Positions 2,743 through 61,414 of a stretch of 64,000 bases of DNA are shown one piece after another (the first letter of the stretch is position 1; each line of letters begins with the position of its first letter). Location: positions 2,212,001-2,276,000 of the forward strand of contig NC_080422.1 in the NCBI RefSeq assembly GCF_029873635.1, read 5' to 3'. Position numbers and translations under genes: made by a program. This DNA is from Malania oleifera. Lineage: Eukaryota > Streptophyta > Magnoliopsida > Santalales > Ximeniaceae. The notes under the pieces are model-generated. The model saw only the letters and a program-made list of their open reading frames with translations. It was not told the DNA's origin and did not search any database.

Positions 2743-4690
2743 TGTAGAGACCCAAACCCAAAAAAATAAGAAAAATTAAATAAGAAAGGAAAATTTCAAA
2801 AGTAGAACAGCAGACTTCATCGATGAGGTCCCGGTTCTCGTAGACAAAGGCCTTTATGTGGTTCGTCGCCAAAATTCAGAGTCTCGTCGATGAAGAGATC
2901 TAGAAAGGCTGAAAATATCAAGTTTAGGGTTTGTTGACAAAGCCTTTCTTTCGTCGACGAACGGCCTTCTGTAGCTCGTCTACGAAGGTGCCACTTTGTC
3001 GACGAATTTGACCAGGTCAAAAGTCTATAAATAGGATTTTTGTTTTCTTCTTTATTAAGAAAGCTAAATCTCTCTCTCTTTCTCTCTCTCTAGAACCATG
3101 AACCATACTCTCTCTCTCTCTCTCTCTCTCTCTTTAGTTTCTTCACCGTTCGTCACCCAAATAAAAAATCAAAAGTTACCACAAGGATAAGGGAGCGAAT
3201 ATCTACAATCCTAATGGAGTAGATTCTTGATCTCGGGAAAAAGTTAGGGTTTGATTTTCGAGCGTTTCAGATTCTTTTTCAGAAATAGGTAAGGGGATTA
3301 AGTTAGGTCAACTTTTTATGAAATTGAATCGTTTAAAATGTTTATGAAGTAAGCATATTTATGTTTTCAGTTGAGATTTCTAAAGTTAACCATTCAAAGG
3401 ATCCGTTTTCAAACCTAGGATATACGTTATAGTATTTTTAGTATAAATGAACGGTGGAAAGCTCGATTTTATGTTTTAAACTGTATATGCTATGTTTTCT
3501 TGGTTGCCTACAAGCTATATTCAAAGTACAGGAAATTATGTGGCAGAAAAATGATATGTAAGTACTCTTTCGTAACCGAAATGATGAATATTTGTGAAAT
3601 ACTGAGACTGCTTATCAAAATACAGATTATGTTTATGACCGCGAGGGTCAAGATTATGTTTAACGGCTGTGAGACGAATTTTATATGAAGGCTGAGTGCC
3701 AAAGGTTTTAAATGAAAGGTTTTATATGAAATGAATACGAAACATGTTTTTACTACTTAAATCGCACGATATGCTTTAGGAACCCTAAGGACCATTATGT
3801 TATGAGCACAGTACCATTGCTAGGAATTATATATGTAGCCATCCCACACTGTACTGTGAGAATGGTGTAGGTGGTTTCAGTTGATTAGCCTTGGTAGAGG
3901 GTGTACCTAACCTAAAAGCCCTAACTTTCAGGACATATATGGTTGGCAATCGGAGCATGCAAGTAATTGCGGATGCCTACGTGGATGGTGTTAGACGCGG
4001 ATGTATGTTTGAATTTGTCTGGGTTGATCATCCTAAGCTTAGTTCAGCCTTCGAGTAGCACAACCTTGACCACGGGGTTTATACATGACAGTTAGTTTCA
4101 GGAGGTGTCTTTTATGCATATCTATAAATTTATGTAAATGATGTTACATGATTAATGAACTGTTTATGCTAGGAAAATGGAATGAGTATTTTCAATTGTA
4201 TAAGTACGTATGATGTAAAGATAGTTATTTTCGGTTACATGAAGAATGGATGTTTTCTGTAAACACTAATGCATGCTGCCCACACACTGATATTAACTTG
4301 ACATCCCTTACTAAAAAGTGTCTCGTCCCAATATACAAATCATCTTTTTAGGAAATAACAGGTATCGTGCTTAGCAGCGTCAGGGGGGTGAATGTTAGAA
4401 TAGTCTTTTTGGGAAGGTTTGTATGAACTCAGGTGTATGTAAATTACGTTGTAAGTTAGTGGATATGTATTATGGTTGTTTGGATTGAACTAGTTCTCTA
4501 GTTTTGGGTCAGATAGTAATATGGATGTTTGGGAAACCTTTATGTATGAAAGAACTTAGAACTCTAGTAATGTAATTATAGAGAATGTTTCATTACTTCC
4601 ACTGTATGTTTATTGTTGTGAGATGGTATCAGGTACACAAACATCACTAAAGTAGCACATTGGGCTCACGTGGCGGGTTGAGGCGTTACA
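2743..4690 (+). repeat. Gypsy 1 5' LTR (1948 bp)
   Basis: It runs from TGTAGAGACC to GCGTTACA. In order it holds the palindrome array, a TATA box (3026-3033), a TC-rich leader (3070-3134), a GGTAAGG donor-like site (3289), an AT-rich middle, a GC-richer block with CACAACC near 4058, the conserved CTTACT...TCTC block (4308-4327) and a TTTTTAG acceptor-like site ending at 4351. By eye about 35 differences from the 3' LTR occur in the first 290 bases, mostly transitions, so the insertion is not recent. Confidence 0.95.
2816..3033 (+). promoter_or_regulatory. Palindrome array plus TATA box, gypsy 1 5' LTR
   Basis: There are eight copies of a 12-bp palindrome related to TTCGTCGACGAA between 2816 and 3006, with start-to-start spacing 21, 25, 21, 47, 20, 25, 20 bp by direct count. 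TATAAATA follows at 3026-3033. Variants are mainly C-to-T or G-to-A. Confidence 0.8.
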
Positions 4691-4692
4691 AG

Positions 4693-4705
4693 TGGTATCA
4701 AAATC
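4693..4705 (+). other. Primer binding site of gypsy 1 (decayed)
   Basis: It reads TGGTATCA followed by AAATCC, two bases after the LTR. The intact initiator-tRNA site in gypsy 2 is TGGTATCAGAGCC, so the 3' half is mutated. Confidence 0.8.
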
Positions 4706-5140
4706 CTAGGTTTGCTAGGTTCTACAGACTTTGTTAGTGAAAATTACCGGAGTATAGGTTGTGATAAGTTAAGGATAAGAATGGGTAAGAAAACTTGAGT
4801 TTTATCTTGGAAGCTTAGGGATGGTGATCTTTCGACGGTTTTCTATACTTTTCCTGGAATGACAATTACAGGAAAATCATGGTAAATCCATCGATGGTTT
4901 CGTTTCTAGGTTAAGGAATTGGAGCTCTAAAACTTAGGTTGGGAACAATAGGTTGGACAAACTATGTATGTAGTGTCAATGTCATGATTAGGGGCCGATA
5001 CCTTGGTAGTTTTGTAGTAGTAATGTATAAGTGATTTCTTTAAACTGCAAATTTGCATGTTTTAGCTATTAGTCATTCCATACTTGCATCGACCTTGATA
5101 AATGTGGAATATCTAAGTCGGTTTCTATCCTATCTTCAGG

Positions 5141-6540
5141 ATGGAACCTAAGGGAAAGGAGGTCATGTCAGGAGGGGACAATCATATGGATGCCTCCAGC
5201 GAAGATGATGTTGAGGCCTTGAATGTGCTGCGCAGTATAGCACGCCAAGCTAGGAAGGAAGTGCGGAGGGATTCTCATGAACATGCTCAGCTAGTGACTG
5301 ATAGAGGCTACACGTTCTAGAAATTTTCTCAAACTAACCCACCGACATTCTCAAGAGGACCAAACTTGATTGCGACGTAAGATTGGATTTAGGAGATGGA
5401 GGAACTGTTGGGGGTGCTAGAATGCACAGAGGAGCAGAAACTGAGGTTTGCCACCTTTAAACTAGTGGAAAAGGCAAAGAGATGGTGGAGATCGGCTAAG
5501 TTGATGGAGGAACAGCGGCCAAGGTATGCTTCTATTACCTGGAGCCGTTTCAAGGAAGTATTCTTTAGCAGATACTTACCCGTTGTCACTAGAGAGGTGA
5601 AAATAGAGCAATTCCTACAGCTGACCCAAGGGTCCTTCTCAGTGCAGCAGTATGCGGCCAGATTTGTGGAGCAATCCCAATTCGCTCCACATATGGTCTC
5701 GAATGAGCTGAAGAAGACTCAGATATTTAAGAGAGGCCTGAAGCAAACAATATGCATGCAAGTGGGGAAGTTATTGGTCCAAAACTTTACTAAGCTGGTA
5801 AATAGAGCCATAACGGCGGCGCCGATAGCTGATTGGCAAGGAATGGTGCGCCACCCCCTCCCCCCGAGAAAGAGAAACGGACTTCCCCTTATTTATTTTC
5901 TTCCCTTTTCTCCTTTCTCCCCCTTTTCTCTCCTCTTTCTTCCACCACCTTTTCCTCCTTCCTGTTCTCTTTTTCCTTCTTTGTCTTTTTTTATCTTCTT
6001 TCCTTTTTCCCTTTCCTTCCCCTTTTCCCCCCCCCCCCCCTTCTTTTTCCTTCCCCCCCCTCCTCTTTCTTCTTTTCTCCTTCTTCCCTCTCCCGCCCTT
6101 TCCTTCCCCCCCTCTTTCTTTTCTTCTCATTTTCCCCCCCCCCCCCCCCTACTCCCTTTTCCCCTCGCCCCTCCCCCTTTTCCCATCTTTTCTTTCCTTT
6201 CCTCCTTCTTTTTTTTCCTCTCCTTCCTTTTTTTCCCTCCCCCCCCCCCCCCTTCCCCTCCTCCCCTCCTCTTTCCTTTTCCTTTTCCCCTCTCTTCTCA
6301 CTCTCCTCCTCCCCTTGCCTCAGAGATATCATACCAGTTCTAGCTAGAGCTTTTGGAAGCCGCCTGGTAGTTTGTTAGGTGAGCGGAAGGTGATGGGATA
6401 TCAAGCCTCTCAAGGGAGTTCTCAGAGTGCCACTTGTTCCAGATGCCATAAGAAGCATTGGGGCGAGTGTAGGGCTGGAACGACGGTTTGCTACCGTTAC
6501 GGTGTAGTAGGACATTAGGTGTGGGACTGTCCCATAATGG
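5141..6540 (+). pseudogene. Gypsy 1 gag
   Basis: The likely start is ATG at 5141 (MEPKGKEV), about 450 bp after the primer site. Early stops are TAG and TAA in place of expected Gln or Glu codons near 5318-5390. The open core (5396-5860) shows the gypsy gag fold region: LRFATFKLVEKAKRWWRS, WSRFKEVFFSRYLP and FLQLTQGSFSVQQYAARF. At about 5860-6325 the frame enters a polypyrimidine tract that replaces part of the basic linker. The zinc-knuckle region follows at 6437-6530 (CSRCHKKHWGEC, then CYRY...GH, stop, VWDC); the second Cys of the CCHC box is Tyr and the box holds a stop. Nonfunctional. Confidence 0.88.
5903..6322 (+). repeat. Polypyrimidine tract inside gypsy 1 gag
   Basis: About 420 bases are almost purely C and T on the plus strand, with C runs of up to about 15 and no simple period. 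It produces long Pro/Ser/Phe-rich and Lys/Arg/Gly/Glu-rich open frames on both strands that are composition artefacts. Confidence 0.9.
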
Positions 6541-8640: not shown

Positions 8641-9720
8641 GAATGGACCCAGAAAGGTTGGGTGTAGAGTTAGTGGAAGGAAATCACCAGACATTCATTG
8701 TTGACCTGGTAGCACAACCAACCTTATAAGAGAGGATTACATCAGCTCAAATAAAAGATGTAGAGCTGGCAAGGATTATGAGTGGGATACAGTATGGGTT
8801 AAACATAGATTTCCATGTGTTAGATGATGGGGTGTTGAGATTTCACACTAGGATCTACGTGCCTAATGATGATGAGATTAAACGAACCATCTTGGATGAG
8901 GCACAATTCTCTTTATATATGATCATCCAAGAAGTACAAAGATGTATAGGGATCTGCGAGGTTCTTTTTGGTGGTTTAACATAAAAAGAGAGATCGCCTA
9001 CTTCGTAGAGCAGTGCTTGACGTGTTAGCAAGTGTAGGCCGAGCACCAGAGGCTAGCTGGACCATTATAGCCACTTGACATTCCAAAGTGGAAGTAGGAG
9101 CATATCTTGATGGACTTTGTGTCAGGATTGCCTTCAGTGGTGCATGGGCAAAGCGCAATCTGGGTTATAGTGGATCGACTGATGAAGACTACTCACTTCG
9201 TTCCAATTAGGGTCAATTATTCCATGGATAAGCTAGCAAGGCTTTATGTGCAAGAGATAGTACGGCTTCATGGCATCCTGGTTTCTATAGTTTTAGATCG
9301 AGATCCCTGGTTCACCTCTTATTTCTAGAAGAGTTTGCAGGACACCTTAGGATCTCAACTCACCTTTAGTACCGCATTTCACCCACAGACGGATGGACAG
9401 TCTGAGAGGACCATACAAATTTTGGAGGATATGTTGTGGGCATGTGTATTGGATTTTGGTGGTAGTTGGATTAGATATCTGCTATTAGTCGAATTTCGAT
9501 AAACCATACGTATTTTTAAGGGGGGGGCTAGTTATTGAGATTGACAAAATAGAAGTGTGTATGGTCGCCGGTGTCGATCTCCGTTATACTGGGATGAGGT
9601 AGGTGAATGGCAAGTGTTGGGACCGGAATTAGTTCGGCAGACCTTTGCAAAGGTCAAACTTATCAGGGAGAGGATAAAAGTCGCACAGAGTCGGCAGAAG
9701 AGTTAAGCAGATACTCGCTG
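8640..9720 (+). pseudogene. Gypsy 1 integrase
   Basis: The zinc-binding end is degenerate near 8930-9030 (EQCLTC preserved). The catalytic core contains MDFVSGLPSVVHGQ (first Asp, 9107-9150), VDRLMKTTHFVPI, VLDRDPWFTS (second Asp intact, about 9290-9320) and DGQSERTIQ (catalytic Glu, about 9390-9420). Stops interrupt it at 9032, 9080 and 9328. ACVLDFGGSWIRYLLLVEF follows, then a G-run insertion at 9520 breaks the frame. Confidence 0.85.
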
Positions 9721-10165
9721 ATGGATGCTAAAGTTTGAGATCGGGGATATGGTATTCTTGAGGATTGCTTCGATGAAGGGGGTGATGAGGTTTGGAAATA
9801 AAGGCAAGTTGATTCCTTATTGGGCCTTTTGAGATCCTGGAAAGGATTGGTCTAGTTGCTTATCGAGTGGTGTTACCACCAGCATTGTCTAGAATTCAAA
9901 ATGTCTTCCACGTATCAGCGCTGAAGAAGTATGTGTCAGATTCTACGCACGTAATTAGCTTTGAACCTTTAGAGATTGGGGATCTTTTGACTTACGAGGA
10001 GGTACCAGTTCAGATTCTGGATCAAAAGGTACAGAAGCTGCATACAAAAGAAATACCGTTAGTAAAGGTACTGTTGCATAATCATGTGGTCGAGGAGGCT
10101 TCTTGGGAGCTAGAGACAGAAATACGCCAGAAGTACCCACAACTTTTTAGTGATGATCAATGTTA
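9721..10165 (+). pseudogene. Gypsy 1 integrase C-terminal (chromodomain-like) tail
   Basis: A first frame has FEIGDMVFLRIASMKGVMRFG (9733-9795). After a frameshift the open segment 9867-10166 reads ALSRIQNVFHVSALKKYV, then PVQILDQKVQKLHTKEIPLV and EEASWELETEIRQKYPQLF. In chromoviruses this end carries a chromodomain that targets insertion to chromatin; here the family is inferred from position and similarity between the copies in this window. It ends at TAG 10164-10166. Confidence 0.78.
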
Positions 10166-10488: not shown

Positions 10489-12404
10489 TGTAGAGACCTA
10501 AACCTAGAAAAATAAGGAAAATTAAATAAGAAAGGAAAATTTCAAAACTAAAATAGCAAGTTTCGTCGATGAGGTTCAGGTTCTCGTTAACGAAGGCCTT
10601 TATGTGGTTTATCACTGAAATTCAGAGTCTCGTTGATGAAGAGATCCAAAATGGCTAAAAATATTAGGTTTAGGGTTTGTTGACGAAGCCTTTCTTTCAT
10701 CAACAAATGGCCTTCTGTATCTCGTTGATGAAGGTGCCACTTCGTCGATGAATTTGACTGGGTCAAGAGTCTATGAATAGGATTTTTGTTTGCTTCTTCA
10801 TTAAGAAAGCTAAATCTCTCTCTTTCTCTCTCTCTCTCTCTCTAGAACCATGAACCATACTCTATCTCTCTTCTATTTTTTTGCCGTTTGTCACCCGAAT
10901 TGACGATCAGAAGTTGCCACGAGGATCAGGGAGTGAATATCTATAATCCTAGCGGAGTAGATTCTTGATCTTAGGAAAAAGTTAGGGTTCGATTTTTGAG
11001 TGTTTAGAATTTTTTTTCAGAAATAAGTAAGGGGATTAAGTTAAGTTAGCTTTTTATGAAATTAAACCTTTTGAAATGTTTATAAAGTAAGAATATTTAT
11101 GTTTTCAGTTGAAATTTCTAAAACCGATCGTTCAAAGGATCCATTTTCAAACCTAGGATATACGTTACGGTATTTTCAGTATAAATGAATGATGGGAAGC
11201 TCGATTTTATGTTTTAAACTGTTTATGCTATGTTTTCTTGGTTGTCTATGGGCTATATTCAAAGTACAGGAAATTGGGTGGCAGGAAAATGATATGTATG
11301 TACTCTTTTGCAACCGAAATGATGAGTGTTTGTGAAATACTAGAACTGCTTATGAAAATAAAGGATTATGTTTAACAGCTGTGAGCCAAGTTTTATATAA
11401 TGACCGAGGGTCGGAGGTTTTAAATGACAATTTTAATATGAAATGAATACGAAATATGTTCTTACTACTTAAATTGCACTGTACGCTTTAGGAACCCTGA
11501 GGACCATTATGTTATAAGCATGGTACCGTTGTTAGGAATTATATATGTGGCCATGTGCGCTCACACTGTACTGCGAGAGTGGTGTGGGTGGTTTCAGCCG
11601 ATTAGCCTTGGTAGAGGGTGTACATGACCTGGAAGCCCGAACTTTCAGGACATGGTAGGACAATCGAAGCACGCAAGCAATTGTGGATGCCTGCATGGAC
11701 AATGTTAGACGCAGATGTATGTTTGAATTTATCTGGGTTGATCATCCCAAGCTTAGTCTAGGCTTCGAGAAGCACAACCCTAACCACAAGGGTTTATACA
11801 TGGTGGTTAGTCCCAAGAGGTGTCTTTTATGAATATCTATAAATTTATGTAAATGATGTTATGTGATTAATGAACTGTTTATGTCAAGAAAATGGAACGA
11901 GTATTTTCAACTGTATAAGTACGTATGATGTAAAGATAGTTATTTTCAGTTACATGAAGAATGGATGTTTTCTGTAAACACTAATGCATGCTGGCCACAC
12001 ACTGATATTAACTTGATCTCCCTTACTAAGAGTGTCTCACCCTAATATACAAATCATCTTTTTAGAAATTAATTGGTATCGTGCTTAGCAGCGTCAGGGG
12101 GGTGAATGTTAGAATAGTCTTTTTGGGAAGGTCTATATGATCTCAGGTGTATGTAAATTACGTTGCAAGTTAATGGATATGTATTATGGTTGTTTGGACC
12201 AAACTAGTTCTTCAGTTTTAGGTCTGATTGTAATATGGATGTTTGGGAAACCTTTATGTATGAAAGAACTTAGAACTCTAGTAATGTGATTATGGAGAAT
12301 GTTTCATTACTTATGCTGCATGTTTATTATTATGAGATGGTATCAAGTACACAAACGTCACTAAAGTAGCACCCCAGGCCCACGTGGCGGGTCAGGGCAT
12401 TACA
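10489..12404 (+). repeat. Gypsy 1 3' LTR (1916 bp)
   Basis: It aligns along its length with the 5' LTR and ends GGGCATTACA before the TTGTA duplication. The conserved CCTTACTAAG...TCTCACCC block is at 12020-12042. The TATA box is changed to TATGAATA (10772-10779), unlike the intact box of the 5' copy. Confidence 0.95.
10562..10779 (+). promoter_or_regulatory. Palindrome array, gypsy 1 3' LTR
   Basis: It has the same layout as the 5' LTR array, from TTCGTCGATGAG at 10562 to TTCGTCGATGAA ending 10752, but with more decayed units (for example CATCAACAAA). The following TATA box is mutated. Confidence 0.75.
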
Positions 12405-15526: not shown

Positions 15527-15835
15527 GATGAGAATATACATATATATATGAATGTAATAATTTTTTTAAAAAAATTACTTATACAAAAGTTTATATCATA
15601 TATTACGTCAAACATAGAGTGAGATAAAAACAGATATTTTTTGTCATAGTTAAATTTTGGAATAACATTCCATATTTATTCTATTTTATGAATTAATAGA
15701 AAATCTTGCATTGTCATTTTTTTTGTAACAACAATACAAAAATATTAGCATTGTAGAGACCCGAAAAAATTTATAGAAATTAAATAATAAAGAAAGGAGG
15801 AAGAAAAGGAAATTTTAAAAGGGGACGTACAGGGT

Positions 15836-16053
15836 CTCGTCGACGAATGCAATGTTCTCGTTGACGAGCATTCTTATTGGACTCATCTACGTGGACATGC
15901 GTCTTGTCTACGAGAACTTACCGAGAGGTCTATATCTAGGGTCTGAAACTCGTCGACAATGATTAAGTGCTTGTCGACGAATCTCCTTTATGGACTCGTT
16001 GATGAAGTATCGTGGCTCGTCGACGAGGCCACATGGACAACACTCTATATATA
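15836..16053 (+). promoter_or_regulatory. Palindrome array plus TATA box, gypsy 2 5' LTR
   Basis: Eight 12-bp units run from 15836 to 16027, with start-to-start spacing 21, 25, 21, 46, 21, 25, 21 bp, which is the cleanest example in the window. TATATATA is at 16046-16053. First and last units are CTCGTCGACGAA and CTCGTCGACGAG. Confidence 0.85.
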
Positions 16054-16097
16054 GCCCCAAAACGGATTTTCAGCGAGGAATTTCATTTTTTTTTTAT

Positions 16098-16100
<3 letters not shown>

Positions 16101-16170
<70 letters not shown>

Positions 16171-16194
16171 CTCTCTCTCTCTCCCTCTCTCTCT
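16101..16194 (+). repeat. (TC)n microsatellite in LTR leader
   Basis: A nearly pure TC repeat lies just after the TATA box, where the transcript leader would begin. The 3' LTR has only a short TC stretch at this place (23600-23635), so the tract has expanded or contracted since insertion. Confidence 0.95.
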
Positions 16195-16924
16195 ACACGG
16201 TTTCTCTCACTTCTCTCTAGGTTTCCAGCTCTGTCTCTCCCGGTTCGACGATTAGGAGCTACCACGGTGATCTTGAGGAGATTCTCTACAACATAGTTAA
16301 AGCAAAATGTTGATTTGATAAGTTTGGAAACCATCCCAAAATCATAGTAAGTAGATTATTTGGGTATTGTTAGTATTATGAAATTTATTTGAGCCTAGAT
16401 TTTATATTATATGAGAATATACTGAAGTTTTGTGAAGTAAAATCAAGGTCTTATATTTTTAGGAATAGGGTGGGTTGAGGACCCCAGTGGGTGATATTTC
16501 AGGAACTCAGGTAAAATGATAAATGATTTATAGTATAGAAATTTTGCGTATGTGGATTTGAGGAGAATATGTATGTGATAATTATCTAAGTGAATTCAGT
16601 TGTTTGATTGTAAAATTATACGGGTGTTATCTCAGGATGTTGAAATTATGAACGCTGCATACATGAGATTGTAAATAACATTTAGTGCTCAGATAGTCAG
16701 GTAAGGGAAATATGTTATGCCAGTTAAATTAGTAATAGTAAAAGTAGGTTTATGTGTTTCAGGAAAGTATAGATTTTAGTACAGAGGCTCTTTATTTAGT
16801 TATGTGGCATGAGTTAATATCATATCATTATAGTATCTCTATAGCTTTCTGATATCATGATTTACAGTATATCAGAAAATATTATTATATTGAATTTATA
16901 TGAATTTCAGAATATCATGATGTA

Positions 16925-16965
<41 letters not shown>

Positions 16966-17538
16966 CGTAAAAATATCTACAAACAGATAGATATTCTCAG
17001 ATTTTGCAGAATCACATTTTATGGAATATATTCAGAAAAATAATTAATACATCATTTTCGGTATACCATGATTTTCAGATTTCAGAACCATAACACTTCA
17101 GATATTTAGTGTTCAGATATACAGTTATTCAGATTACACAGCATATTCAAATCAGTTATTTCATGTTATGGTCATTTCAGTTATATCAGAATCATGGTAA
17201 AACAGTAATATAAAAATATCAGTTACATATATATAGTATCAGACCTTGATGAACCAGATCAGTTTCAGAACCTGGTACCATAGTTATTTTCAGTTCAGAG
17301 TGCAACCACATAACTCAGATAGTATGTGGATTTTCAGTAGTCGATTGTGCCTATGTTGTGGACAGGCTCCCCGTCAGTTAGGGTTGAGGAGGCTGATCTG
17401 ACTTTCGGAGTTCAGTTGACTTATCCAGGTCGGTCAGCCAGTGATAAGTCCTGCCTACGGGCCGCATAACCCTGTCATGAGGGTTTAAATCATGACTTTC
17501 AGTTATCCATTTAGGGAAATTTTCTTAGTTATTATATA

Positions 17539-17584
<46 letters not shown>

Positions 17585-18195
17585 TTTACAAAAACCGTGG
17601 ACATACCTATGAATATGAGAAGTATTGTGAATAGAATGTTTAGAAAAACAGTTTATATTAAGTAACATAGGTATGAGCTATATTGTGTATTAATTATACG
17701 TGTTTTCTTAGACTCGGTTATTTGTAATACTTCTAAATCACATTTTACAATTATGTAAACTCATCTGCCACACACTAGCAATAGTATATTTCGTCTTACT
17801 AAGCGTTGTCTCATCCTAGTATTTTATTATTTTTCAGGTGAATCAGATAGACAAGTAGATCATACTCACAGGTAGAGGGGACTACAATACTGCCCTGTTT
17901 GGAGGGTAAGTAATTTGGGAAGTCACTTTTTGAGTAGTCCCTAGATCCAAGTGAGGGAAATTTTGGAATGGTTAAGTATGTATATTTTAGAGAGATACTG
18001 ACTCTCTGGTATTGCATATATTTTATGTGGATATGTGCTTTCTACTTTCCGCTGCATAGGTAGTTTATGGTTATACAGGTTCCACGGTCCTTACCTAGTC
18101 AGTGATGATGTTATGGTTTATATTAGAAGTGGTGAAATTTTACAGTTTATATATGTGGAAAAAAAAAAGAGCATGAAAATTAGGTCGTTACAATT

Positions 18196-18516: not shown

Positions 18517-19480
18517 ATGATGAACCTAAGGAGCAATGGTACGAATGTTGGGGGTGATGGAGTAGGACCTTCCAGTATGGGAGGTAGAGATACTAATGCA
18601 ATATTATGCAGCGTCACTTAGCAGGTGATGGCTGAGATGGCCAGGATTTCAGAGGAGCGTGGCTGAATGATTCGAGCAGTTTACGCAGATGAGACCTCCG
18701 TCATTTTCTGGAGGAGCAGACTTTTTAGCAGCTGAGAACTGGGTCCAAGACATTGAGGATATGTTACCAGTGCTTAAATGTACAAATGAACAAAAGGTAG
18801 TATTTGTGATGTTCAAATTGAGAGGAGAGGCCAGATGCTGGTGGAGATCAGCGAGGTTGATTAAGGAGCAGATATTGGATCTTGTGCCAGTGATGTGGAG
18901 TCGATTCAAGGAATTATTCTTTGAGCGATATTTTCCTACTATCATTTGGAGTGCAAAGGCAGCAGAATTCATGCACTTATCTCAGGGGCAGATAACAGTA
19001 TCACAGTACGTAGCTCGATTTATTGAGTTGTCTCAATTTGTCCCACATATGGCACTAGGTGAGGAGAAAAAGGTGAGGAAGTTTGAAGAAGGTATGAGGA
19101 AGAACCTATTTGAGCAAGTTATTGGTTTTTGGGCTCAGACATTTGCGGATGTTGTGGATAGAGCTACGGTTATTGAGAGTGGCATGCAAAAAGGCACTAC
19201 AGCTCAGAGTCAAAGAAATAGGCCTATGCCTCAGGGTTTTCAGGCGGGTTTCAGCAGGGGCCCATGGAGAGGAGATTGTTACAGTGGAGGTCAGAGACAG
19301 ATGATGGGACCTTGTGGGAATTTGGGCGTGCTGACTTACCCTATGTGTCAAACGTGTGGGAGGAAGCATCTGAGAGAGTGCTAGGAAGGGAGAGACTTCT
19401 ACTATCATTATGGGAGACCCAACCATATGGCACGAGCATGACCAGGATCGCAGATCCAGGTCTTAGCTCCCAGATCCTAC
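18517..19480 (+). pseudogene. Gypsy 2 gag
   Basis: The start is ATG at 18517 or 18520 (MNLRSNGTN); a stop (TAG) and a frameshift occur before 18689. The long open part 18689-19384 reads MRPPSFSGGADFLAAENWV, then RGEARCWWRSARL, WSRFKELFFERYFPT, FMHLSQGQITVSQYVARF and a basic glycine-rich linker. The cysteine region has CQTCGRKHLREC, then a stop. The following CCHC box reads YYHYGRPNHMARA: both leading Cys residues are Tyr and the last is lost at a TGA. Nucleic-acid binding would therefore fail. Confidence 0.9.
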
Positions 19481-19546
19481 CAAGGAGGTTATTAGGTATG
19501 CCGTGGAGGCCAGCAGAGGAATGTAGCCCCAGCAAGGGTTTATGCT

Positions 19547-19987
19547 TTGACATCAAGAGACGCTAAGACCGCAGGTGACATCGTGACAGGTACCTTTACT
19601 ATTTTATCATATCAAGTTATTGTCTTATTTGATTCAGGTGCCACCCATTCTTTTGTGTCTTTGGCCTATGTTAAATTGTTTGGAAACGAGACCCAGTTAT
19701 TAGATGTGGAATTTTCAGTAGCTACACCATTAGGGTTAGTGATGAAGTGTCGTAAAGTGCTCAGGGGTTATCCAGTAGAAATTCAGGGGAGGGTGTTACC
19801 AGCTGACCTGATTGTGCTAGATATGCATGAATTTGATGTAATACTGGGTATGAACTGGTTGGCAACTAACTATGTTAGTATCAATTGTCATATGAAAGAA
19901 GTGATATTTAGACTACTAGACACGCAAGAATTTAAATTTTTGAGATCGCAGGTATGTTCCCTGCCTCAGTTAGAGTCAGCCATGTAG
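19547..19987 (+). CDS. Gypsy 2 aspartic protease domain (motif intact)
   Basis: This open segment of 146 codons contains the retropepsin active site LFDSGATHSFVS (about 19628-19663). It continues with VEIQGRVLPADLIVLDM, HEFDVILGMNWLATNYVSINC and EVIFRLLDTQEFKF. In the family it dimerises and cuts the Gag-Pol polyprotein. It follows gag with a frame change and stops at TAG 19985 before the RT. The domain looks complete, but it lies in a broken polyprotein, so function is unlikely. Confidence 0.85.
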   Translation: MTSRDAKTAGDIVTGTFTILSYQVIVLFDSGATHSFVSLAYVKLFGNETQLLDVEFSVATPLGLVMKCRKVLRGYPVEIQGRVLPADLIVLDMHEFDVILGMNWLATNYVSINCHMKEVIFRLLDTQEFKFLRSQVCSLPQLESAM

Positions 19988-20023
19988 ATGAGAAGACTGT
20001 TCCTGGATGGATGTTAGGAGTTT

Positions 20024-20880
20024 ATGGCCTTTGTAAAGAAGATGTCAAAAAATGAATCGATGCTTGACAGTGCACCAATGGTGGAGGAATTTTCAGATAT
20101 TTTTCCAGAAGAGCTACTTGGGTTGCCTCCCAATTGTGAGGTAAATTTTGCTATAGATTTACTTCCAGGAATGACGCCGATTTCCAAGGCTCCATACCGA
20201 ATGAATCCTACAGAATTGAGAGAATTAAAGGACCAGTTATAGGATTTATTGAGTAAACGGTTTATCATACCTAGCGTACCACCCTGGGGAGCACCAGTAT
20301 TATTCGTAAAGAAAAAAGACAGGTCTCTGAGGATGTGCATAGATTACAGGGAGATAAAGAAGGTAACCATTAAAAATAGATATCATCTACCCCGTATAGA
20401 TGACTTATTTGATCAACTTCAGGGTACACGGGTCTATTCTAAGATTGACCTCAGGTTGGGCTATCACCAAGTGAAGGTTAAAGTAGATTACATCTCTAAG
20501 ACAGCTTTTAGGACCAGGTATGGGCATTATGAATTTTTAGTTATGCCACTTGATTTGACGAATGCTCCAACGGTATTCATGGACTTGATGAATAGAATTT
20601 TTCATTAGTATTTAGACCAGTTCGTTGTGATTTTCATTGATGATATACTGGTTTAATTGAGGAGTTTGGAGGAGCATAAGGCATATTTACGGCTGGTACT
20701 TTAGATGCTCAGGGAAAAGAAATTGTATGCCAAGTTTAGCAAATGTCAATTATAGCTAAAAAAAATTTATGTTTCTGGGGCATGTTATATCAGGGGATGG
20801 AATTTCAGTGGATCCCAGTAAGAAAAAGATAGTGGTAAATTGGTAAAGGCCAATCAATGTTCTAGAGATTAGGAGTTTCT
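20024..20880 (+). pseudogene. Gypsy 2 reverse transcriptase
   Basis: It opens with FSDIFPEELLGLPPNCEV, APYRMNPTELRELKDQL, a TAG stop at 20240, then [19 protein letters not shown] and [16 protein letters not shown] with the first catalytic Asp. [16 protein letters not shown] follows. The catalytic F-I-D-D box is intact at 20633-20644, just after a TAG stop at 20606 in place of an expected Gln. More stops follow at 20655, 20703 and 20754. Catalytic residues are better kept than in gypsy 1, but the frame is broken many times. Confidence 0.9.
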
Positions 20881-21420
20881 TGGGATTGGCTGGATATTAC
20901 TGTCGATTTGTAGAGGGATTCTCAGGACTATAAGGGCCTTTGATGTGACTGAGCAAGAAGATTTCCAGATTTGCATGGGATGATGCATGCGAGCAGAGCT
21001 GCCAGGAATTAAAATAGCGGCTTGTCACTACACCAGTACTGACAATTCCATCTGGAGGTGATGGCTATGTAGTTTACAGTGACACGTCTTTGAAATTTCT
21101 TGGCTGTGTATTGATACAGCATACTAGGGTCATAGCTTATGCCTCCCGACAGTTGAAAGAGTATGAAAAGAATAACCCTACCCACGATCTAGAATTGGTT
21201 GCAGTGGTACACGCGATAAAAGATTTGGAGGCATTACTTGTATGGTGAGAGATGCGATACATTCTCTGATCACAAAAGTTTGAAGTACTTTTTCACTCAA
21301 AAGGAGTTGATTATGAGATAGAGGAGGTGGTTGGAACTTATTAAATATTATGACTGCACTATCAGTTACCACCCAGGGAAAGCAAACGTGGTAGTAGATG
21401 CTCTAAGCAGGAAATCAGTG
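20881..21420 (+). pseudogene. Gypsy 2 RNase H
   Basis: The linker SFLGLAGYYCRFVEGFSG starts near 20875. RNase H pieces include [17 protein letters not shown] (first Asp kept, about 21064-21115), [12 protein letters not shown] (21140-21175) and YDCTISYHPGKANVVVDALS (21349-21408). Stops at 20930 and 21320 and frameshifts near 21220 break it. Confidence 0.83.
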
Positions 21421-22500
21421 GGACCTGCACTGGCAGCTATGGAGGTTCGGCATCCGATCCTGACAGATCTGGAGAGACTCGATGTAGAGTTGGTAGGGAG
21501 TGATCGTAAGAAATTTATTGCCAACTTAGTGGTGCAGCCTACATTACAAGAAATAATTAAAGCTACTCAAAAAGAGGACCCAGAATTAGTAGAGGTAATA
21601 GCCAGAATACAGGGTGGTCAAAGAGAGGAGTTCAGTATTTCAGATGACGGAGCTCTGAGGTTTCATACCAAATTATATGTGCCTGCAGATGATGATATTA
21701 GGAGAACGATTTTAGAGGAGGCTCGCAGATATCTATACACAGTTCATCCCAATAGTACTAAAATTATAAGGATCTGCGAGAGTATTTCTGGTGGAGTGGC
21801 ATGAAGAGGGAGATTGTCGAATTTGTGCAGCAGTGCTTGACATGCTAGCAGGTTAAGATTAAGCACCAGAGGCCAGTAGGGTAGTTGCAACCACTTTACA
21901 TCCCTGTGTGGAAGTGGGACCACATATCCATGGATTTCGTCACTAGGCTACCGCCAGCACCGCATGGATAGAATGTCGTCTGGGTAGTTATTGATTGGCT
22001 AACGAAAACAACCCACTTTCTACCTTTTAAAGTTAGCTACCCTATGAACTAATTGACAGAGATCTACATTCAAGAGATTGTTCGACCCCATGGAGTGCCA
22101 GTATCTATAGTCTCGAATCGTGACCCATGCTTTACATCACGATTTTGGAAGAGCTTATAAGAGACTTTGGGGTCTTAGTTAGCATTCAATACTGCTTTTC
22201 ATCGTCAGATAGATGGTCAGACAGAGAGGACAATCCAAGTACTTGAGGATATGCTGCGAGCGTGTGTATTGGATTTTGGGGGTAGTTGGACCCAGTATTT
22301 GCTGCTGGTTGAATTTGCTTATAATAACAGTTATCAGGCTAGCATTGGCATAACACCTTACAAGGCGCTTTATGGTAGGAGGTGTCGTTCTCCTCTTTAC
22401 TGGAATGAGTTAGGTGAAAAGCAAGTTTTGAGACCAGAAATAGTGCAATAGGCGTACAATAAATTTTGACTTATTCGAGAAAGAATCAGAGCAGCTCAGA
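21421..22500 (+). pseudogene. Gypsy 2 integrase
   Basis: The N-terminal part is open to 21804 (SVGPALAAMEVRHP ... RRYLYTVHPNSTK), leading into a zinc region with CLTC before a stop. The core has WDHISMDFVTRLPPAPHG (first Asp), [16 protein letters not shown], where the second catalytic Asp is Asn (AAT 22116-22118), and DGQTERTIQVLEDML (catalytic Glu). A final open piece 22251-22451 reads LLLVEFAYNNSYQASIG, TPYKALYGRRCRSPLYW. At least seven stops are present, several of them TAG or TAA where Gln is expected. Confidence 0.88.
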
Positions 22501-22978
22501 GTCGGTAGTAAAGCTATGCAGATAATCGCCATTAGAAATTGGAATTTGAAGTAGGTGACCATGTGTTTTTGAAAATAGAGCCACTGAAGGGAGTCATGAG
22601 GTTTGGGAGGAAGGGTAAGTTGAGTCCTAGGTTTATTGGCTCGTTTGAGATACTTGAGAAGGTTGGGTCAGTTGCCTATCGACTAGCTTTGCCACTAGCT
22701 TTGTTCAGAATACATAATGTATTTCACATTTCTATGTTAAGCAAATACGTCTCAGATCTCTCTCATGTCATCAATTATGTAGAATTTGAACTCAGTGATG
22801 CTCTAGCTTATGAGGAAATTCTAGTATAGATCTTAGATAGGAAGGAACAGGAAATGCGTAGTAAGAAAATTCAGTTTGTAAAAGTGCTATGAAGAAATCA
22901 TGCCATGGAAGAAGCTTTATGGGAGCTTGAGGAAGAAATTAGATAGAAATACCCACACCTATTTAGTGGGGCACAGTA
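22501..22978 (+). pseudogene. Gypsy 2 integrase C-terminal (chromodomain-like) tail
   Basis: The open segment 22539-22829 contains FEVGDHVFLKIEPLKGVMRFG, LSPRFIGSFEILEKVG and RIHNVFHISMLSKYVSD. After a TAG at 22827 it continues ILDRKEQEMRSKKIQFVKVL, then NHAMEEALWELEEEIR and KYPHLFSGAQ with a stop at 22978. The same region exists in gypsy 1 and gypsy 3. The chromodomain assignment is inferred from family and position. Confidence 0.8.
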
Positions 22979-23339: not shown

Positions 23340-23555
23340 CTTGTCAACGAATGCAGGGTTTTCATTGACGAGCATCCTTCCTGGGCTTGTCGACATGGAG
23401 ATGCATCTCGTCGACGAGAACTTACCAAGAGGTGTTTCCAGGGTCTGAAACTCATCGACGAGAATTAAGTGCTCGTTGACAAACCTCCTTCATGGACTTG
23501 TAGACGAGGTATCGTGGCTCGTCAACGAGGCCACATGGACAACACTCTATATATA
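23340..23555 (+). promoter_or_regulatory. Palindrome array plus TATA box, gypsy 2 3' LTR
   Basis: Units run from CTTGTCAACGAA (23340) to CTCGTCAACGAG (ending 23529), then TATATATA at 23548. It is the same architecture as the 5' LTR with more decayed units. Confidence 0.8.
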
Positions 23556-25958: not shown

Positions 25959-26140
25959 TTCATCGACGAATACAGGGGATTCGTCGGTGAAGGCTTAAGA
26001 GAATTCGATGACGAAGACTGAATTTCGTCAATGAAGAAATACCAAGAGGCGTTTTGAGCTGACTGAATTTCATCGACGAAATTAATGAAGGATTCGTTGA
26101 TGAATGACGTGGCTCATCGACGAATCCAGTTCTATAAATA
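25959..26140 (+). promoter_or_regulatory. Palindrome array plus TATA box, plus solo LTR
   Basis: Seven units are seen, 25959-26124, with spacing 21, 24, 20, 45, 24, 20; one unit of the second quartet is missing. TATAAATA is at 26133, only 8 bp after the last unit. The first two units and their spacer nearly match the copia-type LTR at 31953. Confidence 0.8.
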
Positions 26141-29224: not shown

Positions 29225-29447
29225 TATTTATAACTAGTTTGACTCGGCCAGCCTCATCGACGAGTCGGAGTTCTTGTCAACGAGTCCAAGAAGGTCACTC
29301 ATGGCCAAGAAGGTGATCTCATCAACGAGTTTGAGATTTCAGAATCCCTAAATATCCCTCGGTATCTCCTCATTGACGAGCCTTGGCGTCTTATCGCCGA
29401 GCCACAAAAGAGACTTCGTTGATGAGAAATGGAGCCTCGTCGACAAG
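29225..29447 (-). promoter_or_regulatory. Palindrome array plus TATA box, minus solo LTR
   Basis: The eight units span 29253-29447 (including the weak unit CTCATGGCCAAG). Plus-strand spacing is 20, 25, 20, 51, 21, 25, 21. The minus-strand TATA box is at 29225-29232, about 20 bp from the nearest unit. Confidence 0.8.
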
Positions 29448-31952: not shown

Positions 31953-32371
31953 TTCATCGACGAATACAGGGGATTCATCGATGAACTCAACATGGTACCT
32001 CGTCGACGTACACAGGGTACTCATCGACGAGAATATACCGAGACCACCTAAAAAGTTCAGAGCATCTTTGTCTACGAATACAAGGGATTCAGCAACAAAG
32101 TTAATGTAGTGGTTCGTCAACATACACAGGGTACTCGTCGACGAAAAGATACCGAGATTGCCTAAAAGTTCAGAGCATCTTCATTGACGAATACAGGGGA
32201 TTCGGCGACGAAGGCAATGCAGTGGTTCGTTAACGTACACAGGGTACTCGTCAATGAAAAGAAACCGTGACCCATTCAAATTTAGAACCAATGGTTCGTC
32301 GATGAACATAGGGCTTCGTTGATGAAGGCACTCATGGGACTCATTGACGAAGTCGTGACCTCGTCGACGAA
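31953..32371 (+). promoter_or_regulatory. Double-length palindrome array in a copia-type LTR
   Basis: Sixteen units form four quartets, each spaced 21, 25, 21 (last 20, 25, 20), with 46-48 bp between quartets. Linkers repeat ATACCGAGA and AAAAGTTCAGAGCATC. This is the gypsy architecture doubled by tandem duplication of a quartet-plus-linker unit of about 113 bp. No clear TATA box follows at once. Confidence 0.8.
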
Positions 32372-32951
32372 TGTCAGGCTACAGATTGCATTAAATGCGC
32401 CAAAATGGCTAGTTTTCAATCTATCTTATGTCAATTAATGCCCAACTGCTCACTAGCGCTCAACTCGTCCCTTTGGCCTCTAAAATGGGTCATATGCATT
32501 TATTTCAAACAAGTTAAGCATATTGGTTGTTGAGAACAATTATTGTGCATTCACAACTAGGGTTTCACTTTGTGCCATCTTGCCCTCTTGCTCTTTACTC
32601 TTGTTCACACACCAATTACAAAGAGGGAATAGTGTGAGGTTTTTATTGGGATTTTCAGCTCAAAGAGGAGCATTCTACATTATATTTACTTGCTTCAAAT
32701 TCTTTGTATTGGAAGGCTCTTGGTGAGCTTCTATAAGGTGACTCTAGGTGAGCACCATTGTTAAAGCTCATTATGAGTAGCTGGGTTGTTAAGGTTTCTC
32801 CGCCGGGAAGGAGGGTTACATAGTGGATTTGGGGAATCCTTGAGTTGGTCTCAAGGCGTGGACGTAGGTTCAGTGCAGAACCATGTTAACATCGCTGCGT
32901 TAAGCTTCTCTTATCCCTTCTCTCTTGTGTTGCTCACTTATTGCTATTTGT

Positions 32952-48976: not shown

Positions 48977-50699
48977 TGTTTTGATGATATTAACCTATTT
49001 GTAGTTCCTAGTGTATTCCTAGTTTGCAGATCATGTTTAATACAGGTACAAGTGACAAATACATGAAGTACTGAATCAAAAGTAAAGATCGGACCGAGTT
49101 GACGTCGAGTAGGAAAGATTAAAAGGACACTCACTCAGAAAGGATTCAAGCACATCCAAGGAAGCTTAATGTAGAAATATATGTAATAGGAGTGTTTGAG
49201 GTAGTATATTTTGTAACTCTTGCGGTCCTGTTTCATACATGATTTCTGAGCAAGAGTTGAGTAATTGCACATGCATACTAGGACACATGAATTTATAGGA
49301 TTTCATTAAGTCACAAACTCAACATACATGGTTTTCAAAGTTAAAACAAGAGTTTGTCAAAAATATCCTATACTCAAATATATTTTCATAAGAGACAAGT
49401 TTTCAACATCTTTGTATTATAAACTTTCACATACTTGGTCCGAGTCAAGTCCAAAACAAGCTTTTTGTCCTAAAGCCTCAGGAAAGTCAAGTATATCTTT
49501 ATAAAGGACATACTAGCTTATAAGATATCAAATGAGCTTTCAAATGTGTTTTTATATACAAGATATTTTATATTCAAGGGGAAACTCATTTGGACAAGTA
49601 TTAATCTTCATTTGACTTAATATCTTTAATATACTTTTGTCCAAGAATGTTCTAAGTCATAAAAAGGCTTTTTTGGTATGAAAAAATAGGACATTCATCG
49701 ACTAATGGGATGTAGTCGTCGATAATTAAACCAATAAGCCTAATTGAGTTTCTGCCCAGGTTAATCGTTGACGAATAGGGTTGAATCATCGACGAATGTA
49801 CTGGACTCATCGACAAATGGTGCTGAATCGTCAACGAATTTTTCAAGTAGCCAAAACGAGTTTTCAGCCCAGGTGACTCGTCGACGAGAAGGGGTTTTCG
49901 TTGATAACTGAGAGTGACTCGTAGACAAATTTATGGCATTCATTGATAATTCGCAGTGTGATATAAACACCAACGACGAGTTTCTTTTGGGATTCACTCC
50001 CAACGGCTACATAACGACTAGCTTGGGTTTTTGGCTATAAATACAAGTTCTTAAACTTGTTTAGGAATGGTTTTGATTATTATTGCAAGTTTATAGTGAA
50101 AAATATCTTTGAATATAAAAGTTAGGTACTTTGCATCTTAGTTCATCATTCTAAGTGCTCAATTCTCTTTTACTTTCTAATCTTGTTTGATTCATTCCTT
50201 GAGAGAATACTGTGAGGTTTGTTTTGTATTTGATATCAGTTCAATAAGGAGCATTTCATTGCAATCATCTTCAAGTTGTAAGGTCCTTCGTGAACCGTTG
50301 TTGAAGGTTCTTGGTGGACCGAATTCACAAGGCTTCTTGGTGAACCTTGTGGCTCTTAGTGAGCGGTAGGGATTTGTTCCCGAGTGAAGGCTCTTGGCGA
50401 GCATTGAGAGATTGGTTCTCTCGTTGTAAGGCTTCTCCGTCAGTGAAGGAGTTTATAGTGGGGTCCTTGAGTTGGTCTCAAGGCGTGAATGTAGGTTTGG
50501 TACCAAACCATGTAAAAATACTGGTGTTAAGCTTTCTCTTCCCTATACTCTTTATTTATGTCTTGTGCATGATTTGCGTGTCATATATTGTAATATAATT
50601 GTTTGTATCTTGTCAAGAATTTTATTTTGTAGAGAAAGTCGTAAATATGCGAAAGAGTTCATTCACCCCCCTCTGACTCTATATACACTCGGGTCAACA
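48977..50699 (+). repeat. Large copia-type LTR
   Basis: 1723 bp, TGTTTTGATGATATT to GGGTCAACA. It has the palindrome array, a TATA box (50036-50043), the block GAGTTGGTCTCAAGGCG (50469) shared with the LTR at 31430, and the end TTCACCCCCCTCTGACTC. LTR end style and primer site suggest SIRE/Tork-like copia; this is an inference because no pol follows. Confidence 0.78.
49694..50043 (+). promoter_or_regulatory. Variant palindrome array plus TATA box in copia-type LTR
   Basis: Ten units, 49694-49950, in groups of two, four and four. Within groups the spacing is 20-21 bp (no 25-bp step); groups are 49-50 bp apart, with linkers repeating GAGTTT-CTGCCCAGGT. TATAAATA lies at 50036, about 85 bp downstream, farther than in the gypsy LTRs. 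Confidence 0.75.
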
Positions 50700-54950: not shown

Positions 54951-55153
54951 TTCGTCGACGAATAGATTGGTCTCATCGAAGAATGTTCTTCTTAGCTCGT
55001 CGATGAGGGTACGTGTCTCATCAACGAGGAATTACTGAGAGGGGTTCTTTGCATGACTGAAATTCTTCAATGAGTTGGTTGTCTCGTCGACGAACTGTGT
55101 ACTAGGACTCGTCGACAAATAAACGTGTCTCATCGACGAACTGTGTATAAATA
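54951..55153 (+). promoter_or_regulatory. Palindrome array plus TATA box, solo LTR at 54862
   Basis: Eight units, 54951-55140, spacing 21, 24, 21, 46, 20, 25, 21. TATAAATA is at 55146, 5 bp after the last unit. Confidence 0.85.
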
Positions 55154-56450: not shown

Positions 56451-56577
56451 AATATTGATGACTGTGGAATATGATTGGTTGGCAAAGCCATTGACTTTGT
56501 GTGATTATGGGCACGATATTTTGGGCTTCTTGGGAATTGTGTGTACACTTTAGATAAATATTTTAATTGTATAATAA

Positions 56578-58255
56578 TGTAATAGCCTAGAAAATTTTAC
56601 ACAGGGCCTCATCGACGAACACAAGGAGTTCGTCGTCGAGGGCATAAGGAGGCCTCGTTGACGAAGCCACGTCTCGTGGATGAGGAGATATCAAGAAAGG
56701 GTTTAAGGCTAACTGAAACTCGTCGACGAAGGAGCAGGTTCATCGACAAAATTTCTAAAGGACTCGTTGATGAGGTGACATGTCTCGTCGATGAATCTAA
56801 CCCTATAAATAGTGAAAACTCAGAATTTTCAGCATTATTTGGTGCAAAACACTCCCTTTTTCTCTCTCTATGCCCCTCTCCCCTTCTCTCTTCGATTTTG
56901 GCTCTATTTCTTGCCAGATTGAAGATCTAAGGCCACCACGACGCTCTTGGAAAAGTTCTCTGCAAGTCTGCTGGAGCTGATCATGGGAGAAGTTGATTTG
57001 AAATTCATCCCAAATCCAGGGTAAGGTATTTTATTCAGATTATGCCTTCCTTGTAGTTATAAGAAATGTTGTAGGTAAGAAAATACTTATGTTTTGTTCT
57101 GGGGGATGTTGTTTTCAGGGTATTGAGTGGAGAACCCTGCGGGTATAGGGCTAGAGTACATTAGGGACTTTTCAGAGATAAGGTAAAGAAAATATGCTAT
57201 GATAGGAATTTTTATAATATTATCAGAGATTTTACACATATGTATATACCAGCTTCTTACCTACTTTTACAGAATATGAGTTTTTAAATGCTTGTGTGGC
57301 CTGAGTAGATATTTATGTGATGAAGAACTTATATAGTTTTTACAGTGTATCATACTATACAGAATACACAAATATAGATAGTATATTACAAATATTTATT
57401 CAAAACAGTATATTATACTTTTACTCAGATCAGTATGTTATAGTTTTATACAGATTAGTATATCACAGATATTTATCTAGAATAGTATATTACAATTTTA
57501 CTCAGATCAGTATATTACAGCCTTATTCAGAACAATATATACAGGATTTACAGTATGCCATGTTTCCTATTACCATAACATTCAGAGTATATAGACAAAG
57601 TATATAGACAGAGTATAGAAACAAAAATACAGAGATAGCATCAAGATGCTACAGATACATAATACAGCGATTACAGTATTTACAGTACAAAAAGATAGCA
57701 TTATGCTAATTCTGGAAACATGATGAAAGCAGTAAAAGAGTATATATGTATATATATATAGTATCAGATCCCTAAGGAATGATTACAGATAGATACAGAT
57801 AAAGAATACAGAGCACGGTACCGTTGCTATATACAGAATAGAGTGCAACCACATATCTCAGATAATGTGTGGGTACCATCAAACTGTACTCATAGAGGAT
57901 GCAGCTTCCCAGTTCGCTGGGCTGAGGGGGTCAGTTTGACGAGGTAGTAACCAATCCCGAGCTTAGGAATGGATGCAGTTTGGCCGGGCTGTGATAGTGT
58001 AAAGTGTGATGACTTACTTGGAGGACCGACCAGGATAAGCCCCACGTACAGGCCGCACAACCCTGTCATGAGGGGTTAAATCATGACATACAAAGTCCTA
58101 GAGAAAGAGCACAGTTATGTATATGTATACAGTTTTACAGCTTTTATCGTATATAGTATGATATAGCAGTATGAATGATAGAAAGTTTAGATTATACAAA
58201 TGCTTTAAGCTACTATACATGTGTTTTACAGATTTTCTAGATCATGCAGTTATAG

Positions 58256-58293
<38 letters not shown>

Positions 58294-60358: not shown

Positions 60359-60394
<36 letters not shown>

Positions 60395-61081: not shown

Positions 61082-61127
<46 letters not shown>

Positions 61128-61401
61128 GGTTTTGTTGCGCCAAAGTCTGCCAAAAATTTGAGTTTTAGCTATTTATAGAGCCTAATTCGTCAAAGAGACA
61201 CGTCACCTCGTCGACGAGTCCTGTAGAAAGTTCATTGATGAACCTGCACCCTTGTCGACAAATTTCAGACTTCCAAAAACCCTCTCTCAGTATCTTCTCG
61301 TCGATGAGACAGGTCTTCATCGATGAGATCCTAAAGAACCCTCGTCGACGAAATCCTTGCGTTTATCGACGAGGCCTGGAAGAATTTCTTGGGTTATTAC
61401 A
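59448..61401 (-). repeat. Gypsy 3 3' LTR (1954 bp)
   Basis: The plus strand starts TGTAACAACC and ends GGGTTATTACA. On the minus strand: array, TATA (plus 61170-61177), a TC-rich leader (plus 61056-61124), the hairpin block (plus 59780-59803), and a TTACA end. It belongs to the same group as the solo LTRs at 54862 and 56578. Confidence 0.92.
61170..61373 (-). promoter_or_regulatory. Palindrome array plus TATA box, gypsy 3 LTR
   Basis: Eight units at 61186-61373, plus-strand spacing 21, 24, 20, 46, 19, 25, 21. The minus-strand TATA box is 8 bp beyond the nearest unit. Confidence 0.85.
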
Positions 61402-61414
61402 TTCTCTTATCCTT
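61402..61414 (-). other. Polypurine tract of gypsy 3
   Basis: On the minus strand AAGGATAAGAGAA precedes the LTR start; ACGAAATTTTATAAGGA just upstream matches gypsy 2. Confidence 0.8.

Follow-up and report, generated by a model that had tools for sequence, protein, structure and literature searches.

Repeated palindromes upstream of the TATA box are a described feature of one group of plant retrotransposons. As set out in the available sections of one study, the long terminal repeats (LTRs) of Sireviruses carry palindromic repeated motifs (RMs) that number 8 to 32 per element and mark CpG islands; of the copies within LTRs, most precede the TATA box in the upper half (PMC2829016; Bousios et al., 2010). 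The same sections give a CGG-CCG core for 12 of 13 listed RMs (Tnd-1 is without it), call the motifs Sirevirus-specific and absent from classic copia elements, and leave their function untested, with no common binding factor identified (PMC2829016). Excerpts of a second paper describe 5' CpG islands of variable length and sequence near the promoter in LTRs of Del chromoviruses of grasses and report the eudicot group to be without them (PMC4029996); the words 'palindrom' and 'tandem' are absent from its main text, as they are from the main text of a study of U3 diversity in Tnt1 (PMC1838419). In VANDAL DNA transposons, dense clusters of one short, one-orientation, non-coding motif recruit VANC, a sequence-specific, element-encoded protein, in a process involving DNA methylation (excerpts of PMC5735166, whose main text does not use the word 'spacing'). 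The ONSEN LTR promoter has heat-responsive sites (nTTCnnGAAn) by which it makes use of a transcription factor of the host, and active ONSEN LTRs have no CG sites (excerpts of PMC3907296).

The arrays of a 12-bp palindrome that we describe here, in LTRs of Malania oleifera, share features with each of these systems. Like the Sirevirus RMs, they are palindromic, CpG-rich and kept while their flanks diverge, with seven to eight or more units per LTR, and one grape RM, CGGTCGACCG, in the available part of the RM listing has the GTCGAC centre in common with the Malania unit. They differ from the RMs in sequence, as the 205 units compared have the core TCGTCGACGA and no CGG-CCG core, and in that they occur in Ty3/gypsy as well as copia elements, in a 21/25/21/46 register with a centre motif. 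A CpG-rich 5' LTR stretch in Ty3/gypsy elements recalls the Del islands, but Malania is a eudicot and its spacing is strict. The dense clustering of one short non-coding motif is shared with the VANC targets, although these belong to a DNA transposon. In the Drosophila gypsy element, the host zinc-finger protein Su(Hw) has an array of roughly twelve sites, which forms an insulator in the 5' untranslated region; both are arrays of sites in a retroelement, the Malania sites being palindromes placed before the TATA box. An ONSEN-type heat element was considered and ranked lower; the Malania unit, TTC-N6-GAA with three CG, does not match the ONSEN site.

The original prediction, made from the sequence of this locus, knew of no named plant element with such a layout, a statement that does not stand as worded: in the sections available, Sirevirus LTRs are described with repeated boxes that are palindromic and rich in CpG and precede the TATA box (PMC2829016). 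The kind of array is thus already known. As far as the open-licence literature searched extends, the array sequence, the register, the centre motif and the sharing between copia and gypsy elements have no match and appear new; in one of the papers there that contain the core TCGTCGACGA, it lies within a pineapple marker sequence.

The array of the element gypsy 2 illustrates the layout. It lies in the window, by which we mean the whole 64,000-nucleotide stretch analysed (C6:2212001-2276000). The features of gypsy 2 are as follows.

15752..17892, plus strand: 5' LTR, extent from pairing with the 3' LTR, starting with TGTAGAGACCC
15836..16027, plus strand: eight-unit palindrome array of the 5' LTR, units at 15836, 15857, 15882, 15903, 15949, 15970, 15995 and 16016, steps 21, 25, 21, 46, 21, 25, 21
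15918..15927, plus strand: centre motif TTACCGAGAG, one mismatch from ATACCGAGAG, 3 bp past unit 4
16046..16053, plus strand: TATA box of the 5' LTR, followed by a CT-rich leader
18671..19384, plus strand: gag open frame (Retrotrans_gag, Ty3_capsid)
19496..22826, plus strand: pol pieces broken by stops (RVP_2, RVT_1, RT_RNaseH, SH3_Tf2-1 integrase end)
23340..23529, plus strand: array of the 3' LTR

The two LTRs align as direct repeats at 15752-16107/23256-23610 (86.3%) and 16185-17892/23601-25240 (84.8%). The predicted steps of the 5' array are exact, and TATA starts 18 bp past the last unit, also as predicted. The unit consensus is TTC-N6-GAA with three CG per site and the core TCGTCGACGA (frequencies from 205 units). 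None of the eight units in this array is the exact 12-mer, and unit 3 (15882, CTCATCTACGTG) is weak, scoring 7.2 of 12.

The window is rich in such units, with 50 matches at up to two mismatches compared with 0.98 expected, a count reached in 0 of 100 shuffles. Nine further positions named in the original prediction proved real: 2816, 10562, 23340, 54530, 54951, 56608 and 61186 hold eight units each, and 25959 and 29253 hold seven. Two arrays had been missed, at 31953-32371 (16 units) and 49764-49950 (eight units, with steps of 20-21 bp inside each tetrad). Besides those of gypsy 2, the arrays of the window are listed below.

2816..3006, plus strand: array of the gypsy 1 5' LTR (LTRs 2743-4690 and 10489-12404, 85.1%)
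10562..10752, plus strand: array of the gypsy 1 3' LTR
25959..26124, plus strand: seven-unit array, TATA 8 bp downstream
29253..29447, minus strand: seven-unit array of a minus-strand LTR
31953..32371, plus strand: sixteen-unit array, four tetrads with a period of about 113 bp
49764..49950 (start also given as 49694), plus strand: eight-unit array of a second layout, steps 21, 21, 21, 50, 20, 21, 21; its LTR family includes the copia-type L169
54530..54723, plus strand: eight-unit array
54951..55140, plus strand: eight-unit array, TATA 5 bp downstream
56608..56795, plus strand: eight-unit array inside an LTR
61186..61373, minus strand: eight-unit array of a related LTR of opposite orientation

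The sixteen-unit array is a doubled module, apparently produced by tandem duplication; downstream of it, 32785-32926 resembles 50423-50552 in the copia-type LTR at 74%. The stretches 56576-58554 and 59552-61403 are related, LTR-bearing (about 74-75%) and of opposite orientation, forming a large inverted pair.

Arrays with the same spacing are found throughout the genome. The assembly searched comprises 1,494,336,490 bases (1.494 Gb); according to the available part of its publication, transposable elements make up 1,123.1 Mb (75.1%), with 28.9% Copia and 30.0% Gypsy (PMC10199050). The exact 12-mer TTCGTCGACGAA occurs 37,861 times genome-wide compared with 67 occurrences of a reversed control. 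Pairs of exact sites number 1,705 for the two distances of 20-21 bp and 1,488 for the five of 44-48 bp; the 18 distances of 26-43 bp together give 224, many of which, among the matches listed, are at the upper edge of 43 bp. Controls give 0 for all three ranges. Twenty stretches (200 kb) were taken out of 100 random places drawn over the twelve largest contigs, whose lengths were inferred and partly misassigned. These stretches contain 127 sites, compared with 18, 20 and 16 in simulated sequence; 118 of the sites are grouped in 17 clusters with at least three sites each, and 11 of the 20 stretches have such clusters. Steps in the 17 arrays are 20-21, 24-25 and 44-48 bp. Distances between neighbours up to 120 bp apart are 18 (1), 19-21 (47), 22 (1), 24-25 (21), 42-51 (26), 53-55 (3) and 67-68 bp (2), with none from 26 to 41 bp in these 200 kb. 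Scaling the 17 arrays by hand gives about 127,000 arrays genome-wide, with Poisson bounds of about 74,000 to 203,000. On C1, each of 18 loci around exact sites, and chosen for them, has an array with at least six units; as L149 is a repeat of L128, these are 17 distinct places. The original prediction staked itself on genome-wide distance peaks and on arrays beyond the window, and both were found.

Units and their spacing are better conserved than the spacer sequences. Seven representative window arrays were picked from ten, alike arrays being counted once and those at 31953 and 49764 left out. Their units are 0.731 identical, compared with 0.395 for spacers and 0.293 for shuffled spacers, and units exceed spacers in 21 of 21 pairs. 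A larger set comprised 29 arrays of four or more units, 17 from the random stretches and 12 from the window; the 49694 array was dropped for its layout and 28 were put in register. Units scoring below 8.5 (19 of 224) were omitted from unit comparisons, which raises unit identity a little. Across the 239 pairs selected to have spacers less than 0.45 identical (mean 0.363, kept low by this selection), units are 0.732 identical, and in 91% of 1,021 comparisons short spacers have the same length or differ by 1 bp. By contrast, arrays begin 28 to 134 bp past the LTR start, as measured in the 16 of 29 for which that start was called; at the longest distance an outer unit may have been missed.

Comparison with closely related arrays indicates when the units diverged. 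In nine near pairs, chosen for spacer identity of at least 0.70 and including the LTR pairs of gypsy 1, gypsy 2 and L129 (all three taken as the two LTRs of one element), units are 0.78-0.84 identical. Their CpG columns are 0.62-0.77 identical compared with 0.656 in distant pairs, while non-CpG core columns reach 0.95-1.00 compared with 0.949; in eight of the nine pairs, identity is lower in the CpG columns of units than in the spacers. Near pairs thus differ in CpG columns about as much as distant pairs do, which argues for selection on the source copies: active lineages kept the sites, and decay came after insertion. Most of the difference between units would so be damage after insertion, the copy-making lineages having probably retained their sites.

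The decay is of the CpG type. CpG transitions account for 242 of 285 core substitutions, a count favoured by a site score that tolerates CpG transitions more and obtained from units placed by register with 19 of 224 below the cut-off; the predicted C-to-T decay with spacing kept is thereby borne out. Both changes within one CpG are rarer than chance (5 compared with 22.5 expected; 1, 2 and 2 compared with 7.6, 6.1 and 8.8 for the three CpGs). The 28 arrays have a GC content of 0.466 and a CpG observed/expected ratio of 1.52, compared with 0.57 in the window. Decay of this kind is expected for methylated CpG, and we infer methylation of the sites from it.

A centre motif and the TATA box give the arrays a direction. 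A motif near ATACCGAGAG lies 2-4 bp past unit 4 in 18 of 28 arrays at up to two mismatches, compared with 0.14% of shuffled centres; as it was read off the same data, this proportion is a description and not an independent test. The other 10 arrays are without the motif at two mismatches; both the gypsy 1 LTRs and the second copia layout have it weakly or not at all. As in Sireviruses, the Malania arrays cluster in the upper LTR half, upstream of TATA. A TATA box was called for 20 of 29 arrays; measured from the outermost unit found, it starts 5-8 bp downstream in 11 of them and 18-20 bp downstream in nine. The remaining nine arrays have no call. When eight units are forced into register, TATA was called for 21 of 28, one of them at 11 bp. 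Among ten C1 loci, three of 11 arrays have a called TATA box, at 10, 19 and 19 bp. The two main classes stand about one helical turn apart, which suggests a rotational constraint; they may also be just two lineages. Centre motif and TATA point in the same direction in 18 of the 20 arrays with a call, both exceptions having four mismatches, and in 13 of 13 with a call and at most two mismatches. In the copia element of L129, a TATA-like box was found by eye about 90 bp past the array, so that the tight TATA distance applies to gypsy-type LTRs only.

Arrays occur in LTRs of both Ty3/gypsy and Ty1/copia elements. Gypsy 1 and gypsy 2 encode protease, reverse transcriptase and integrase-end families of Ty3/gypsy type, gypsy 2 also gag and RNase H; a chromodomain-like tail of gypsy 1 at 10080-10163 was seen by eye only. 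A long, mostly pyrimidine tract (5889-6375) continues from the gag frame of gypsy 1, with all three forward frames open. L129 carries two arrays in 85%-identical LTRs (4371-4935 and 9105-9690) that begin with TGTTATTT, followed by a TGGTATCA primer-binding site, and between them lie copia-type gag, Pol_BBD, an SH3 family of retroviral polymerases and RVT_2. The stretch L129:4371-10000 runs from a copia LTR through gag and pol to the second LTR, after which a primer-binding site and gag-like sequence appear again, in a tandem or recombinant arrangement. L142 has a minus-strand array after a polypurine tract and TGTTGACTC, a copia LTR by eye; its plus-strand copia pieces may belong to another element. 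The second layout recurs in its copia-type LTR family: among ten loci of that family, including that of the window, seven show at least five units, and their steps are mainly 20-22 and 49-52 bp. In L169, two LTRs of this layout (85.5%) flank a copia-type gag, the first with steps 21, 21, 21, 50, 21, 21, 21. The tetrad period in the second layout (window 49694-49950; L160-L165, L169) is again about 113 bp.

The presence of the module in two superfamilies may reflect exchange of U3 regions between elements or convergence on one host factor. Compared with 17 gypsy-type arrays, those beyond gypsy 1 and 2 being typed by LTR/TATA likeness or by exclusion and not by coding pieces, L129 has unit identity of 0.742, short-spacer identity of 0.382 (null 0.291) and centre identity of 0.395 (null 0.305). 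For L142, units are 0.643 identical, spacers are at chance (0.290 compared with 0.278) and the centre is at 0.411 compared with 0.306. Spacers at the same position are barely more alike than those at different positions (0.348 compared with 0.316). The centre shared between copia and gypsy arrays leans towards exchange over convergence.

These features are consistent with a DNA platform upstream of the promoter. A self-symmetric 12-mer that recurs in a nearly fixed register beside TATA, and that active lineages have retained, suggests a protein that binds DNA as a dimer. We consider it somewhat more probable than not that in many LTR retrotransposon families the arrays serve the U3 promoter as its upstream enhancer, a platform for a dimeric host protein that is shared between superfamilies. 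Each palindrome would be the site of a homodimeric host protein; sites would be paired two helical turns apart, two pairs making a tetrad, and two tetrads would flank a putative binding site of another factor, near ATACCGAGAG. Where a TATA box was called in gypsy-type LTRs, it starts 5-11 or 18-20 bp past the array; the platform could attract the transcription machinery or stabilise it there, or could maintain an open promoter in cells in which the elements are active. Silenced copies would be methylated at their CpGs and then lose sites by deamination. The original prediction had proposed a cooperative transcription-factor platform or a chromatin or silencing target, and what stands of it is a spacing-constrained DNA platform just upstream of TATA, to which spacing and the constraint on units both point. 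Its placing of dimers on one DNA face applies to the 21-bp steps (2.0 turns at 10.5 bp) and not to those of 25 (2.4) and 46 bp (4.4), which turn the next pair by about 0.4 turn, so that only partners 21 bp apart share a face. By the same arithmetic (10.5 bp per turn), all four sites of a tetrad share one face in the second layout.

The dyad is a property of the site itself and is not visible as co-variation. The halves of units do not match in their changes: self-pairing is 0.716 compared with 0.725 when dealt anew, and mirror pairs changed together 5, 12 and 2 times compared with 5.2, 17.3 and 7.4 expected. No binding protein for the motif appears among the literature matches listed in the motif searches, and a stop-free translation across the array at L130:8139-8555 yielded no protein (33 candidates, none at E 10).

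More speculatively, and with doubt outweighing confidence, one host dimer may control a large part of the retrotransposon load through a portable module of about 190 bp, eight palindromes and a centre, that crosses between copia and gypsy elements, leaving about 100,000 like platforms switchable together. If true, unrelated superfamilies would depend on the same host factor and geometry, and one protein would link tens of thousands of elements. With many families, diverged spacers and a register that is kept, the arrays offer a natural test of the spacing rules of plant enhancers, and their sequence could serve as bait for the factor behind palindromic LTR boxes. If the enhancer reading is right, the palindrome theme of Sireviruses extends to Ty3/gypsy elements.

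Other explanations give the host protein a different role. The arrays could be an anti-silencing platform, targeted by a protein that strips or blocks methylation, as VANC does for VANDAL, so that the element gains escape from silencing. One short motif densely repeated in non-coding sequence of the elements fits the VANC pattern in the available text (PMC5735166), and the CpG richness of the sites, with their decay through CpG transitions, also speaks for it. The VANC motifs described there, however, have one orientation and form tandem repeats that gain and lose copies, whereas the Malania unit is a palindrome in a nearly fixed register, and no extra protein family was found in the 20 stop-free window pieces scanned (at least 70 aa, from decayed copies). 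We regard this explanation as unlikely, though the likeliest of the alternatives. The opposite role, in which a palindrome-recognising host protein brings methylation to the LTRs, would agree with the methylation of sites that CpG-type decay implies; an element profits from losing a silencing target, yet in several families the source lineages seem to have retained the array, which makes such a role very improbable.

Two further explanations dispense with a DNA-binding protein. U3 palindromes ahead of the RNA 3' end could act as hairpins or as mere small-RNA templates, as proposed for maize Sireviruses, whose palindromes are small-RNA hot spots according to the available parts of two studies (PMC5311732, PMC10760457). 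The RNA of the gypsy 2 array folds with a z of -4.7, 0 of 200 shuffles being as good, and z lies below -2 in 21 of 28 arrays, but any repeated palindrome folds. RNA pairing of partners 21 bp apart is 0.746 compared with 0.725 dealt anew, a value reached in 7 of 500 shuffles; this gain is small and not specific to partners (nested 0.742 compared with 0.728, 30 of 500; 25-bp 0.723 compared with 0.706, 42 of 500), and relatedness of the arrays alone can yield it. Hairpins need partners that complement each other, whereas the array repeats a single self-symmetric site eight times, and we give an RNA-level role little credence. The array might instead have been born once by tandem duplication and be shared by descent only, without function. 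Residual spacer similarity above that of shuffled spacers (0.395 compared with 0.293 in the window; 0.382 compared with 0.291 for L129 and 17 gypsy-type arrays) and the existence of arrays with extra tetrads or pairs speak for such passive inheritance. Units nevertheless stay at 0.73 at any spacer divergence, their CpG columns in eight of nine near pairs are less alike than the spacers, and the variation in steps is about 1 bp, in contrast to the 28 to 134 bp given above for the stretch between LTR start and array; passive inheritance is accordingly the explanation to which we attach the smallest probability.

Similar spacing was also sought in other sequence collections. A stricter three-unit pattern had no match in the genome-contig or viral-contig collections, which are uninformative on other plants. 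A pattern scan of viral contigs returned at least 120 stretches, three of them with four or more units in 230 bp (L006, L115 and L120). The phage-like contigs L006 and L120 (steps 21, 29, 21) are related to each other, consist of tandem boxes and were rejected as kin of the plant arrays. In both (L006:1810-1892 and L120:6329-6411), four tandem boxes link a TATAAT-like word to GTCGACGAA-like words, perhaps representing a phage promoter array.
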